Below, one piece after another: positions 4,221 to 29,088 of a DNA stretch of 64,000 bases. Positions within the stretch are counted from its first letter, which is position 1; every line of letters starts with the position of its first letter. The notes beneath the pieces were generated by a model. That model did not search any database. It saw only the letters and a list, made by a program, of their open reading frames with translations, and was not told where the DNA came from. Both the position numbers and the translations under genes were made by a program. Source of the DNA: Candidatus Latescibacterota bacterium (GTDB taxonomy: Bacteria > Latescibacterota > UBA2968); the NCBI GenBank assembly GCA_022821275.1, contig JAJEDY010000060.1:62001-126000 (forward strand). Direction: 5' to 3'.

Positions 4221-5375
4221 GTGAAACTCAAAATCTTCCTTCCCATAATTGTCCTGATTATCGGCGTGCTGGGCGCTTATACTCTTGTCAAAAACCGGGA
4301 AGCCGTCCGGCCCAAACCAACAGAGGCACCCCCGCCGCTCGTGCGCGTTCAATCCGTTCATACCACAGACTTTCAACTCGTTATTCCAGCGCAAGGCACG
4401 GTTGCCCCGCGCACGCAAACCACGCTCATCTCACAAGTGGCAGGACAAATCATTGCCGTATCGTCTGCATTTGCCAATGGTGGCTTTTTCGAAAAAGGCG
4501 ATGTTCTGCTCACCATAGACCCGCGCGATTACGAAGTTGCTGTTGCACAAGCACAGGTTCAGGTTGCACAGGCCAAATTGCGATTGGCACGCGAAGAAGA
4601 AGAATCCGCAATTGCCCGCGACGAATGGAAACGCTTAGGCAGTGGAGAGCCAACCGATCTGGTTTTGCGCAAACCACAAATTGACGAAGCCCGTGCGACC
4701 ATTGCCGCTGCCGAAGGCGCATTGATGCGCGCCAACCTCAACCTTGAACGCACGCAAATCAGAGCGCCATATCCCGGACGTGTGCGCACCAAAAATGCCG
4801 ATGTCGGACAATTCGTCAACCCCGGTTCTCCACTCGGTCAAATTTACGCCATCGACTATGCCGAAGTGCGCCTGCCCGTACCCGATGATCAACTCGCTTA
4901 TCTGGACCTGCCGTTCTCCTTCCGCAATAATCCCCATGGCCATTCAGGTCCCGATGTGCGTTTCCGCGCCACATTTGCCGGGCGCGAACACACCTATATG
5001 GGACGCATTGTGCGCGTTGAAGGCGAAATTGACACACGCTCTGGCATGATCGCGCTCGTCGGGCGCGTAGATAACCCATACCACCAGCGCGCTAATAACA
5101 CGCCGCCATTAGCTGTGGGCATGTTTGTCACCGCAGAAATTCTGGGTCATCACACGGAAAACGTCGTAGTCATCCCACGCGCTGCACTGCGCGGTAAAAA
5201 TCGCGTTCTCGTGGTTACGAGCAATCGCCTCTATTACCGAACCATCGACATCTTGCGCGCCGACGCAGAAAAAGTCATTGTTAAAAGCGGTCTAAAATCG
5301 GGCGAGCAACTCTGCGTATCGCCAATTGATACCGTCGTGGATGGCATGCGCGTGCGCACTGGAGGTACACAATGA
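4221..5375 (+). CDS. RND efflux periplasmic adaptor subunit (membrane fusion protein)
   Basis: A 384-residue adaptor. An N-terminal anchor (residues 4-23) is followed by a proline-rich linker, then a lipoyl/barrel-sandwich half near AQGTVAPRTQTTLISQVAG. An Ala/Gln/Glu-rich helical hairpin (about 95-175) comes next. The second lipoyl half contains TQIRAPYPGRV, followed by beta-barrel and membrane-proximal domains. It links the inner-membrane RND pump to an outer-membrane channel. No TolC-like gene lies nearby, so the channel must be encoded elsewhere. The GTG start at 4221 has GAGGAG upstream. The stop overlaps the pump's ATG by 4 bases (ATGA), indicating translational coupling. Confidence 0.93.
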   Translation: MKLKIFLPIIVLIIGVLGAYTLVKNREAVRPKPTEAPPPLVRVQSVHTTDFQLVIPAQGTVAPRTQTTLISQVAGQIIAVSSAFANGGFFEKGDVLLTIDPRDYEVAVAQAQVQVAQAKLRLAREEEESAIARDEWKRLGSGEPTDLVLRKPQIDEARATIAAAEGALMRANLNLERTQIRAPYPGRVRTKNADVGQFVNPGSPLGQIYAIDYAEVRLPVPDDQLAYLDLPFSFRNNPHGHSGPDVRFRATFAGREHTYMGRIVRVEGEIDTRSGMIALVGRVDNPYHQRANNTPPLAVGMFVTAEILGHHTENVVVIPRAALRGKNRVLVVTSNRLYYRTIDILRADAEKVIVKSGLKSGEQLCVSPIDTVVDGMRVRTGGTQ

Positions 5376-25040: not shown

Positions 25041-25103
25041 CACTCGGCGTACAGACAGCGTGGATGCGGGTATTCAATCCTGATCCGAGGAAGGAAGGCA
25101 AAG

Positions 25104-25646
25104 ATGTCCAGCACAGAAATCAAACTTACTTCTGAAGACTACCTGAAGATGCCTGGCGATGAACGCTATGAACTCTTGAACGGAGAATTGGTTATGGCAC
25201 CGGCACCCCGTACAGATCATCAGATGGCTGTGATGAACCTGGGATCGCTATTGCACATATTTGTGAAAGAAAAAAATTTAGGTGTCGTGCTTTCTGCTCC
25301 CACCGACGTGGTGCTTTCGGACATAGACGTTGTGCAGCCAGACCTGTTGTTTATCTCCAATGAGCGCGTGCATATCATCACAGATGAGAATATTCAAGGC
25401 GCGCCCGACCTGATTATAGAAGTTCTATCTCCATCCACAGCCGAGCGCGACAGAATGTTCAAACTCGACCTGTATGCCCGGCACGGCGTAAAAGAATACT
25501 GGCTTGTAGATACCGATGCCAAAACCGTGATGGTCCTGCTCTTAGGCGAGCACCGCTTCGAGGTGATAGGCATCTACGGAGAAGACCAGACTTTGAGTTC
25601 GCCAACCTTGAAGGAATTCTCCCTCAACATTAGTGACTCAATTTAG
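25104..25646 (+). CDS. Uma2 family (DUF820) PD-(D/E)XK nuclease-fold protein
   Basis: A 180-residue protein. It has the family start YLKMP-x-DERYELLNGEL, then VVQPDLLFI, and the nuclease-fold core PDLIIEVLSPST followed by DLYARHGVKEYWLVD. The D, E-x-V and K positions fit a PD-(D/E)XK active site. Uma2 proteins are widespread in cyanobacteria and environmental genomes, often in many copies; their biological role is not settled. GAGGAAGGAAGG precedes the ATG. It opens the accessory pocket between the fucosidase operon and selB. Confidence 0.88.
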   Translation: MSSTEIKLTSEDYLKMPGDERYELLNGELVMAPAPRTDHQMAVMNLGSLLHIFVKEKNLGVVLSAPTDVVLSDIDVVQPDLLFISNERVHIITDENIQGAPDLIIEVLSPSTAERDRMFKLDLYARHGVKEYWLVDTDAKTVMVLLLGEHRFEVIGIYGEDQTLSSPTLKEFSLNISDSI

Positions 25647-25754
25647 ACATTAATGCCTTTGTAACAGACGGCTACAACACTACGATTCGATAGGGTGAGT
25701 CAACGTGCTATGCGCTGTTCGAGAATTTTGACCCGCCAAGATAGAACCCAACAC

Positions 25755-25785
25755 AAAACAGCCATCCAATGTGGGTGGCTGTTTT
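25755..25785 (+). terminator. Hairpin terminator between the Uma2 gene and the secreted-protein gene
   Basis: A 13-base arm (25755-25767, AAAACAGCCATCC) pairs with 25773-25785 (GGGTGGCTGTTTT), with one G-T wobble and a 5-base loop. A near copy lies at 26891-26921 after the next gene. Confidence 0.75.
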
Positions 25786-25801
25786 AATAAGGAGAAGTCT
25801 C

Positions 25802-26884
25802 GTGCTGAAAATCAAGGTAGTTGTGTTGTTTTTTCTTTTTTTATGTCAGACCGCTGAGAGCAAAGAACTAAGTCCAGATATACAGTTATTGATTGCTCAT
25901 GGGTTTATTAAAGAAGCAAAACTTGAGTTGATTGCCGTAGCTCGCAATCCGGCAAATAGTGCCCCAGAGAAAATACAGGCTCTATTGCTTTTGGGCACTA
26001 TAGCATCAAATAATACAGAAAAAAAAGTTGTTTTGGAGATGCTATGTGACATTGACAACAAATACTTGCCACAGCTAAAACAATTTGAGGCTGATGTTTT
26101 AAAGGAAAAAGAGCAAGAGAAATTAGCCCAGCAAAGGCTCCGAGATGAGGAACACGCCAAACAGTATCTTGAACATGCAAAGTTATGGAGAAAACGGATA
26201 AGAGAATGGGAGGATAGTTCCAAAGATATTTCCGATTATTATGACTATGAAGAGTTGGTGGCGTCTATGGAATTTTGGCTTAACAAGGCACTAAATCAGG
26301 TTCCCAACTCCGATGTATCCAAGGAAGCCTTTGAATTTTATTTTGATGTTCTATTTCAGGACCTGCTTAAGCTTAAGCCTAAGCCAGGATTCCTTAACCT
26401 CATCCTTTCTAACATAGATGGAAAGAATTTTGAAGAAAATATAGTTAAAATTGTCAATGGTCTTGAAATTTATGAGACAATGTATCCCGACTCTCCAGAG
26501 ATTTTGCAACGGCTGTGGGATCTGCATACTATTTATTACCTGTTGTCTCGGGAACGTCCATGGACGAAAAAGCAGTGGGATTTAACTTATTTCGGGTCTA
26601 TGTCTGATATGTACATGCTGTCAATAAAATGGTTAGATCGTATTATGAAAAGATCCGAGGATAAGGAGAATTTCTATTCTGATATGGTACGTCGAAGATA
26701 TCGGTTTCTGTCTCGTGAATTCCACCGTTATGTCTTTGTGGATGAAAAAAACCAAGTTGTCCGTCGTCGGGTCACTGGTAGATTTAAACTTGTAGCAACA
26801 GAAAACCTACAAAGGATACATGCAGAAATCAGTCGAAGAGTCACGAAGTACCCCGTTATAGAAATATCTCCTGTTTCCCAGTAG
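25802..26884 (+). CDS. Secreted protein of unknown function, AT-rich
   Basis: A 360-residue protein with a signal peptide (LKIKVVVLFFLFLCQTAES) and a predicted cleavage near residue 20. The mature part is helical and rich in Lys, Glu and Asp, with a basic stretch EKEQEKLAQQRLRDEEHAKQ around residues 100-120, which suggests a coiled coil. I recognise no domain. The GTG at 25802 has AAGGAG 7 bases upstream; an upstream in-frame start at 25769 lies inside the hairpin. The gene is visibly richer in A+T than its neighbours and lies between two similar hairpins, so it may have been acquired as a unit. Function unknown. Confidence 0.7.
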   Translation: MLKIKVVVLFFLFLCQTAESKELSPDIQLLIAHGFIKEAKLELIAVARNPANSAPEKIQALLLLGTIASNNTEKKVVLEMLCDIDNKYLPQLKQFEADVLKEKEQEKLAQQRLRDEEHAKQYLEHAKLWRKRIREWEDSSKDISDYYDYEELVASMEFWLNKALNQVPNSDVSKEAFEFYFDVLFQDLLKLKPKPGFLNLILSNIDGKNFEENIVKIVNGLEIYETMYPDSPEILQRLWDLHTIYYLLSRERPWTKKQWDLTYFGSMSDMYMLSIKWLDRIMKRSEDKENFYSDMVRRRYRFLSREFHRYVFVDEKNQVVRRRVTGRFKLVATENLQRIHAEISRRVTKYPVIEISPVSQ

Positions 26885-26894
26885 GCATAAAAAC

Positions 26895-26920
26895 AGCCAC
26901 CCGTGATCGGTGGCTATTTT
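26895..26920 (+). terminator. Hairpin terminator after the secreted-protein gene
   Basis: AGCCACC (26895-26901) pairs with GGTGGCT (26909-26915) and is followed by ATTTTCTTT. The extended arms (from 26890) resemble the 25755-25785 hairpin. Confidence 0.75.
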
Positions 26921-26986
26921 CTTTATACGTATTTATGAATTGAACCACTAGCCGCCAACATGCTCTGTCGGCCCACTGCCCGCGTC

Positions 26987-27901
26987 TCATTCTTGAGAAT
27001 AACGTTGTGTGACCGCCTTTGCGGCTTCGTCAAGACCGGGAAAAAGACTCTCGCGGGTGATGTTTAGGAGATGCAGTTCTTCGATAATATCCTGCTTATT
27101 CGTGTACGGCACCTTGAGCGTGTAATAGTCGTAAACTGGAATCTCCGCGTTCCGATTCAGGATTTCATCGCGCTCGAACCGCTCGTGAAACACTGAAAGG
27201 AGAAAGGCACCGGACTGCATCCGAATGCGCTCAAACGACTGTTGAGGTTCGACTACGAAGACGCGAAATAGATCTCTTAAGTCGATATTTTCCAAAAAAT
27301 ACGGTTTCTCTTGCCGGATGAAATGGTAGAGACGGCTCAAGGCTTCATCGCGTTCTTTTTCAAGGTTCAAGTCTCCGCCTTCATCGGTGTCATCCTCCGT
27401 TTGGCTCAACAACAGATTCTGCTCTATATGACGAAGTTTGGCGAAATTGGCAATGACGCTTACCGTGTCGCTGTTGAACGACTTAATCATGTCTCTCCAC
27501 ACCGAGAATACGTGCAGGCGACCATCCTCGATACCACCATCTTCGCAGGCATTGAACAGAGCAACCAAAGGATTTCGGGTTATATCGAGGAGGCGTGTCT
27601 TAAGCCCATAGTGTTGCGCCAGCACCCATTGTGAAAACGCTGATGTCAGCCCACTAAACTCCTCTGGCTGACGAGACATCAGTTCGTTCAACATCTCGCC
27701 TTCTTTTTTTTGAAAGCTGGAACGCCGCATCACGGAGGGCCGTAGATCCCAAGAATCACTACTTTCTCCCCGAAAATAGAACTGGACATCATCACCGTGT
27801 TCGTTTTGCAGGTCGCGGTAAACTTTCAGCAAATTCTCAATGCTTTTGATTTCCTTGTTGCTGTTCTCTCGATCTGCCCCAGTATCTTGGGATTCATTCA
27901 T
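26987..27901 (-). CDS. FRG domain-containing protein
   Basis: A 304-residue protein. The FRG motif that names the domain is in FYFRGESS (residues 41-48), followed by WDLRPSVMRR. The second conserved block is LAQHYGLKTRLLDITRNP (94-111), followed by LVALFNA. The C-terminal half (about 150-300) is charged and has no domain I recognise. FRG-domain proteins occur in bacteria and phages; the activity is not established. I chose the ATG at 27901 because it overlaps the upstream pentapeptide gene's stop by 4 bases (ATGA); an ATG at 27919 is also possible. The tight coupling suggests that both proteins work together. Confidence 0.82.
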   Translation of the reverse strand: MNESQDTGADRENSNKEIKSIENLLKVYRDLQNEHGDDVQFYFRGESSDSWDLRPSVMRRSSFQKKEGEMLNELMSRQPEEFSGLTSAFSQWVLAQHYGLKTRLLDITRNPLVALFNACEDGGIEDGRLHVFSVWRDMIKSFNSDTVSVIANFAKLRHIEQNLLLSQTEDDTDEGGDLNLEKERDEALSRLYHFIRQEKPYFLENIDLRDLFRVFVVEPQQSFERIRMQSGAFLLSVFHERFERDEILNRNAEIPVYDYYTLKVPYTNKQDIIEELHLLNITRESLFPGLDEAAKAVTQRYSQE

Positions 27902-28653
27902 ACGGCCTTCGCTTTCCACAGTTTAGCTTTCCATATCTGCGAATGCGATATATTTATGTTAATGAGCTTTGCAGAGACGAGATTTGCGCCAGCGACTGTC
28001 GCTTTCGTCAGGTTGGCATTGGAAAGATCGGCATCGGAAAAATCGGCATCAGAAAGGTCGGCACAGGTCAGATCGGCATAGATGAGAGTCGCTCCCTTGA
28101 GCTTGGCGCGGGTCAGATCGGCACAGGTCAGATCGGCTTGAAAAAGGTCGGCACCAGTGAGATCAGCACAGGTGAGATCAGCTTCAAAGAACTTGGCACG
28201 GGTGAGTTGGACATTGTCAGGTTTGTAATCGGACAAGTATGCTCTCTTTTGAAGCAAAAATTGATCAGGACGTTTAATGTTGATAGGGCCTACTTGGGCG
28301 AAATTGGCACTATTGAGTTTAGCGCGAGAAAAATTAGCGTCGGTTAAGTTGGCCTCCCTGAACTGAGCATAAGGGAGATCGGCATAGGTCAGATCGGCAC
28401 AGGTCAGATCGGCTTTGGAAAAGTCGGCACCCACGAGATCGGCACAAGAGAGGTTGACATCAGTGAGTTTGGCTTTCCGTAAATTGATTTCAGCAAGAGG
28501 ACTTTGATCGTTATGGTCGAGCTTACCCGCCTCCTGAAACTTTTTGGAGATGTCCACACCTGATAGATCCGGCACAAAATCTTCGCGCTCGCGCCTCGAG
28601 TTCCATGACTCAACGCCTTCGAGAAGCCATTGAATGTGTTGTGCATTTGCCAT
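27898..28653 (-). CDS. Pentapeptide-repeat protein
   Basis: A 251-residue protein. The first 30 residues (HIQWLLEGVESWN...PDLSG) match the N-terminal cap often seen on bacterial pentapeptide proteins. Two blocks of A(D/N)LXX repeats follow (about 56-120 and 148-250), broken by a 27-residue insertion (121-147). Such repeats fold into a right-handed square beta-helix; some members mimic DNA, others act as scaffolds. There is no membrane segment. The ATG at 28653 has GAGGAG upstream; earlier in-frame codons lack a site. The stop overlaps the FRG start. The repeated DNA here gives a spurious plus-strand frame, which I rejected. Confidence 0.9.
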   Translation of the reverse strand: MANAQHIQWLLEGVESWNSRREREDFVPDLSGVDISKKFQEAGKLDHNDQSPLAEINLRKAKLTDVNLSCADLVGADFSKADLTCADLTYADLPYAQFREANLTDANFSRAKLNSANFAQVGPINIKRPDQFLLQKRAYLSDYKPDNVQLTRAKFFEADLTCADLTGADLFQADLTCADLTRAKLKGATLIYADLTCADLSDADFSDADLSNANLTKATVAGANLVSAKLININISHSQIWKAKLWKAKAV

Positions 28654-28717
28654 ATCTCTTTCTCCTCTACATCCCAAAATTTCATCCGTTTAATCGTTTT
28701 AAATCAATATAGCCAAC

Positions 28718-28726
28718 ATTATAGCA
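28718..28726 (-). promoter_or_regulatory. Extended -10 promoter for the pentapeptide/FRG operon
   Basis: On the minus strand this reads TGCTATAAT, an extended -10 element. It leaves about 57 bases of leader to the ATG at 28653. No good -35 box is present at the normal spacing. Confidence 0.45.
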
Positions 28727-28744
28727 TCGTGCAAGGTCGCCGCT

Positions 28745-28921
28745 TTATTTCAGAGCGTCTTCACCCTCAACCTCAAGCCAGAGTGCAATCGCCTCCTCCA
28801 TCCGTTCAAGCAACAGGTCAATTGACTTGCCCTGGGTATGACAACCCGGAAGAGCAGGAACACTCCCGACATAATACCCATCTTCATCCTTCTCTATTAC
28901 AATCGTGTATTCAGTGCTCAT
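28745..28921 (-). CDS. HicB-like (UPF0150) antitoxin-type small protein
   Basis: A 58-residue protein that reads MSTEYTIVIEKDEDGYYVGS, then VPALPGCHTQGKSID and a helical tail LLLERMEEAIALWLEVEG. This is the HicB/UPF0150 fold: a Y-x-V strand, the D-G-x-Y-x-x-x-V/VPALPGC-x-TQG loop and an amphipathic helix. It lacks the C-terminal DNA-binding domain of longer HicB proteins. No HicA toxin is recognisable next to it. A 16-codon frame (28961-28911) overlaps its start and could be a leader or remnant. It is upstream of the pentapeptide/FRG pair on the same strand. Confidence 0.82.
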   Translation of the reverse strand: MSTEYTIVIEKDEDGYYVGSVPALPGCHTQGKSIDLLLERMEEAIALWLEVEGEDALK

Positions 28922-29041
28922 TTGATTCTCCCATAGCGTCGCATTCCTCTTGAACAGCCATCCTTCCTTGTCTCTCGCCTTTTATCTCTCCATCTCTATT
29001 CCCCTGTGCGCCTGTGCTACGGCCTCTAACCTGCGGGTTTT

Positions 29042-29081
29042 ATCCTGATCATCCTTTCATCCTGTAAATCCTGATTCCGAC
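29042..29081. repeat. ATCCTG-type intergenic repeat
   Basis: Four ATCCTG/ATCCTT units spaced 8-9 bases apart (29042, 29051, 29059, 29068), directly downstream of selB. The pattern resembles the CAGGATTTACAGGAT dispersed repeats known from many environmental genomes; no coding role is seen. Confidence 0.55.
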
Positions 29082-29088
29082 AATGTTT

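Follow-up and report, generated by a model that had tools for sequence, protein, structure and literature searches.

FRG domains (Pfam PF08867) occur frequently in plasmids and prophages, and have repeatedly been listed as defence candidates. A published assignment (PMC9503650) counts FRG among the ADP-ribosyltransferase (ART) superfamily and sees in it a possible NADase and antiviral effector; the literature searched contained no experiment on an FRG protein. The original prediction had granted the domain no established activity, which holds for experiment but passes over this published candidacy as an ART-superfamily antiviral effector or NADase. Among catalogued systems the closest is PDC-S15 of PADLOC, a candidate family listed as a single gene, whose likeness to the locus described here is a strong, near-full-length match to the FRG protein. 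Even the long PDC-S15 models cover no more than the FRG part of fused relatives, and the family has neither a pentapeptide-repeat (PPR) module nor a two-gene split, whereas the pair described here has both. In the P2-like phage P22H1 a single chain joins an N-terminal module to an FRG domain that is homologous (35% identity). About 165 aa long and with a THWAIKD-like motif, that module is unrelated to the pentapeptides found at this place in the present system. NAD+-targeting RES, TIR and SIR2 effectors and ART toxins are linked to FRG by its published ART placement (PMC9503650), yet show no significant sequence or fold similarity to it. For the other half of the system the reference proteins are Qnr, MfpA and AlbG, which share the right-handed pentapeptide solenoid with the PPR module; unlike them, the module has a conserved non-repeat N-terminal motif and a covalent or operonic link to FRG.

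The DNA analysed here, referred to as the window, is a 64,000-nucleotide stretch of a Candidatus Latescibacterota genome (contig JAJEDY010000060.1). Its relevant features are as follows.

25041..29088, no strand: accessory slot between the convergent core genes adh and selB, from genome comparison
25104..25646, plus strand: Uma2-family gene co-resident in the slot (Pfam Uma2, 1.1e-35)
25769..26884, plus strand: AT-rich gene with a signal-like N-terminus, 371 aa, no family, co-resident in the slot
26987..27901, minus strand: FRG-domain protein, putative effector, 304 aa, ATG at 27901-27899
27898..27901, minus strand: ATGA start/stop overlap, the split point, matching the linker of fused relatives
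27898..28653, minus strand: pentapeptide-repeat protein (PPR), putative regulatory or sensor module, 251 aa, ATG at 28653
28745..28921, minus strand: HicB-like truncated orphan ORF, 58 aa (Pfam HicB_lk_antitox, 5e-10)

Both genes of the pair match their Pfam families (Pentapeptide at 1.5e-41 for PPR; FRG at 1e-18, with a PF08867 score of 68.4 bits, the cut-off being 25). The FRG protein belongs to PDC-S15 (1.2e-79, nearly full length), and PPR matches the Qnr/MfpA/AlbG pentapeptide proteins by sequence. The overlap that had been noted is present on the minus strand, where the TGA of PPR (27900-27898) shares four bases, ATGA, with the start codon of FRG. The single promoter proposed with it finds no support: the site scan returned no promoter-like site upstream of PPR, and such sites are no commoner than in shuffled sequence. 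Could a programmed -1 frameshift act at the junction instead? Inspection by eye showed no canonical slippery heptamer, and by inference we prefer stop-start coupling.

The closest relatives of the FRG gene, 48-58% identical, come from Chloroflexota (L016, L018, L024), the alphaproteobacterium Silicimonas (L017) and another Latescibacterota family (L005), and all five are complete proteins, drawn from three phyla, with both Pfam domains in one chain. These fusions run from an N-terminal motif, MAxxxHIxWLLEGxxxWNxRRExxxFxPDLSG, through the pentapeptide repeats and a short linker beginning WxAKL to the FRG domain; two further records (L019, L020) have linker and FRG in the same frame, with the repeats partial or missing. 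The split copies come from one genus, that of the window. The window PPR carries HIxWLLEGxxxWNxRRExxxFxPDLSG, common to the PPR-FRG fusions, and ends in QIWKAKLWKAKAV, and the FRG frame begins one base back. Because of that motif and that one-base step, the window pair is, as judged by alignment, a PPR-FRG fusion split in its linker by a frame change. The ATGA junction is retained in four further copies from the genus (L013, L014, L015, L008), and in L021 the split lies a few codons from the same position.

In a tree of the FRG part, fusions and split copies form one clade (100/99), inside which the split copies form a single clade of their own (100/99). The fusions are paraphyletic in most bootstraps, which would probably nest the split clade among them; since support for this paraphyly is moderate (86/76), a single fission event in the window's genus is rated only as likely. 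Flat identities across phyla, together with the gene tree, suggest horizontal transfer. Several of the carriers (the L013-L025 records) are presumably from sponge-associated metagenomes, as their bin names suggest, and for that reason the clade may be circulating among symbionts of different phyla. A Nostoc PPR match (H40) was set aside, its C-terminus being different. Nor could a link be made between the N-terminal motif and other effectors (TIR, for example), since most of its Latescibacterota carriers are standalone PPR proteins; the alignment of PPR N-termini varies too much to serve in scanning contigs.

The earlier view of the two genes as a functional unit is strongly supported by the independent fusions into one protein seen in other phyla, and these comparisons make it very probable that PPR and FRG act as one. 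Could the PPR simply be an antitoxin, the protective partner that the original prediction had thought possible? FRG would then be an always potentially active toxin, and PPR a protective partner made first and coupled to it through ATGA, an arrangement that suits the partner-first gene order, the overlap and the small operon. PPR is also retained beside damaged FRG genes (L025, L008), and against a dN/dS of 0.26-0.27 for PPR among the genus copies, the PPR that adjoins a deleted FRG looks relaxed (0.54, from few changes). This reading is nevertheless unlikely, as the two parts form a single chain in other phyla, unlike a labile free antitoxin, and other FRG proteins exist without any PPR. Because PPR and FRG share one chain elsewhere, PPR is better read as a regulatory or sensory domain than as a free antitoxin.

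The fate of the pair within the genus raises another alternative, in which the split is a frameshift lesion of a formerly single gene and the pair a pseudogene heading for loss. Every other genus copy has a damaged FRG, whether through truncation (L021, L008, L025), a frameshift (L014, L015) or an internal deletion (L013, from which about 11 conserved residues are missing). In two sister genomes (G012, G015) the slot is empty, with adh and selB nearly touching. Because most FRG copies in the genus are broken, the unit is dispensable. Against decay, the window FRG is intact and is the only genus copy with every residue that is invariant across 30 homologs (R44-G45, Q96-H97, T102-R103, R225, Q229, G231 and F233), the split copies have one origin, and the ATGA junction has been kept in several of them. 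The dN/dS of FRG between split genus copies is about 0.17-0.21, so that by this measure the gene is still constrained, under purifying selection after the split. A pair on its way to loss is thus quite unlikely to be what the window holds.

What might the FRG half do? Its AF2 model (pLDDT 82.9) returned no Foldseek match in PDB and BFVD at E <= 0.001. A few of the insignificant top matches were the toxins TreTu, TreX and NatT (E 2.5-3.5), which we take to have the ART fold, and these weak matches offer only a hint that the modelled FRG shares it. Comparison of FRG with RES ARTs by hhalign revealed no profile similarity, and a search of PDB sequences with the FRG profile was set aside, the matches being chance ones to ribosomal proteins. 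Five of the invariant residues (R44, H97, R103, R225 and Q229) are polar candidates for an active site. The chances that FRG has its putative NAD+/ART chemistry appear about even.

The structure model of the fusion shows a pentapeptide solenoid resembling QnrB1, MfpA and AlbG, followed by the FRG domain. How far the two families keep company elsewhere depends on the clade: pentapeptides accompany FRG within the PPR-FRG clade but in none of 79 viral-contig (phage or prophage) FRG loci, and among FRG relatives in viral contigs and plasmids outside the clade no PPR lies beside or is fused to FRG. Rare adjacency elsewhere, which the original prediction had named as grounds for rejecting its view, is thus half borne out. 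A search of viral contigs with the whole fusion gave no match, and no plasmid-encoded protein covers at least 80% of it. About half of the 79 viral loci bear another N-terminal module, most commonly the one of about 165 aa with the THWAIKD-like motif (RTHWAIKD; L031-L042). Such architectures suggest that N-terminal modules on FRG may be interchangeable. A role for PPR as the putative sensor or restraint of FRG is proposed tentatively, at somewhat less than even chances. Other phage FRG N-termini (L087, L096, L100, L101) include repeats resembling DUF1508.

Defence links come from the distribution and surroundings of FRG genes. In P22H1 the FRG gene has gpA on one side and the portal gene on the other, and the gpA-gpQ region of P2 is a defence hotspot (PMC9122126); FRG genes of the P22H1 type occur in 59 of 5,426 E. 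coli genomes, and FRG relatives on 293 plasmids. Seven fused loci outside the genus were compared for neighbours, with no background rate. In L016 (1408-2327) a ThsB_TIR gene overlaps an 8xMP membrane gene just upstream of the fusion, and this ThsB-like TIR and 8xMP are candidates for a TIR/membrane pair in defence. In L018 the fusion stands in line with genes for DUF4238, a UvrD helicase and a type III-like methylase, and L017 has a DUF4238 gene nearby, DUF4238 being protective against T7 (PMC9122126); no defence neighbours were seen in L020 and L024.

These surroundings bear on a further alternative, that the pair is a functional unit with a task outside defence, for instance in host-process regulation or interaction with an animal host. 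FRG activity is unrecorded experimentally, the links to defence are by neighbourhood, and the slot contains no integrase or other mobile-element gene, all of which would fit such a task. Patchy presence, the FRG relatives in prophages and plasmids, the location in the P2 hotspot and the PDC-S15 listing speak against it, and a non-defence role is improbable. Judged by gene context, a part for PPR-FRG in anti-phage defence is reasonably probable.

The best explanation, to which we give slightly better than even chances, is that the pair is the two-gene version of the PPR-FRG protein, in which an effector, FRG, has a regulatory or sensing PPR module of its own, and that it is probably anti-phage. 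FRG would be the effector and, by its published assignment as an ART-superfamily enzyme, would consume NAD+ or ADP-ribosylate a target; the PPR rod would hold, place or trigger it on cue, most plausibly phage infection, and the infected cell would stop growing or die. The presence of other N-terminal modules in the position of PPR fits interchangeable sensor or regulatory parts around one effector. A broader proposal is more speculative and rather doubtful: that the proteins of this clade are immune proteins whose pentapeptide rod is the dedicated sensor or assembly module of FRG (a putative ART/NADase), present as one chain in several phyla or, after fission, as two translationally coupled genes, while other FRG effectors carry interchangeable N-terminal modules. 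If true, pentapeptide repeats would have a part in regulating an immune effector and would not be only gyrase-protecting DNA mimics. The fusions and their natural split also provide a defined unit in which to ask which half harms, whether the rod inhibits or activates, and what is sensed. No paper joining pentapeptide repeats, FRG and phage was found, the first Frg report, of 2020, lying outside the search's reach; a prior mention of the PPR-FRG fusion there is possible. The idea of an undescribed system stands for the combination of PPR and FRG but not for FRG alone, already a listed defence candidate; what is new here is that combination and the two-gene split of a candidate FRG kind.

The slot itself is a small hotspot for accessory genes, set where two core genes converge. 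Its GC content is 45.6%, against 52% around it, and falls to 39% at 25701-26890, consistent with the AT-rich gene for a protein with a secretion-signal-like N-terminus that had been noted there. On the selB tree, the FRG label requires several gains or losses. Other genomes vary the cargo: G020 retains Uma2 alone, G021 has a PADLOC HEC-01A/B pair (4.5e-140 and 2e-71), and in G014 (L014:4293-5888) a HEPN_LA2681 gene (3e-57), absent from the window locus, directly follows FRG. An accessory or conflict setting is thus borne out by the empty sites, the defence cargo of the slot, the neighbours of the fusions, PDC-S15 and the P2 hotspot, but not by two genes first cited for it. Uma2 says little as a sign of defence because it is a ten-copy family in the window's genome. 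The supposed HicB-like antitoxin is an orphan fragment that matches only 47 of the 123 positions of the HicB_lk_antitox profile, with no HicA partner matched among the slot ORFs tested, and is not evidence of defence.

The HEC-01A/B pair in G021 (L165:2073-6048) consists of AAA and DUF4276 proteins, and the same slot has an ATPase of the AAA_15 family, for which NsnB is the best PADLOC model, adjoined by a 156-aa gene without a family. In L013 and L166 the HicB-like DNA is found across PPR-FRG from its place in the window, and L014 has it on each side. The fragments, at 28745-28933 in the window, 4262-4425 and near 1712 in L014, and 1692-1855 in L013, are in direct orientation; HicB-like fragments may perhaps serve as recombination substrates. 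A second PPR of the same subfamily occurs in G014 (contig C300, L142:1078-1614), terminating in the fusion-type linker SKPWQADLWQ and with, in place of FRG, an adjoining transposase-like ORF.
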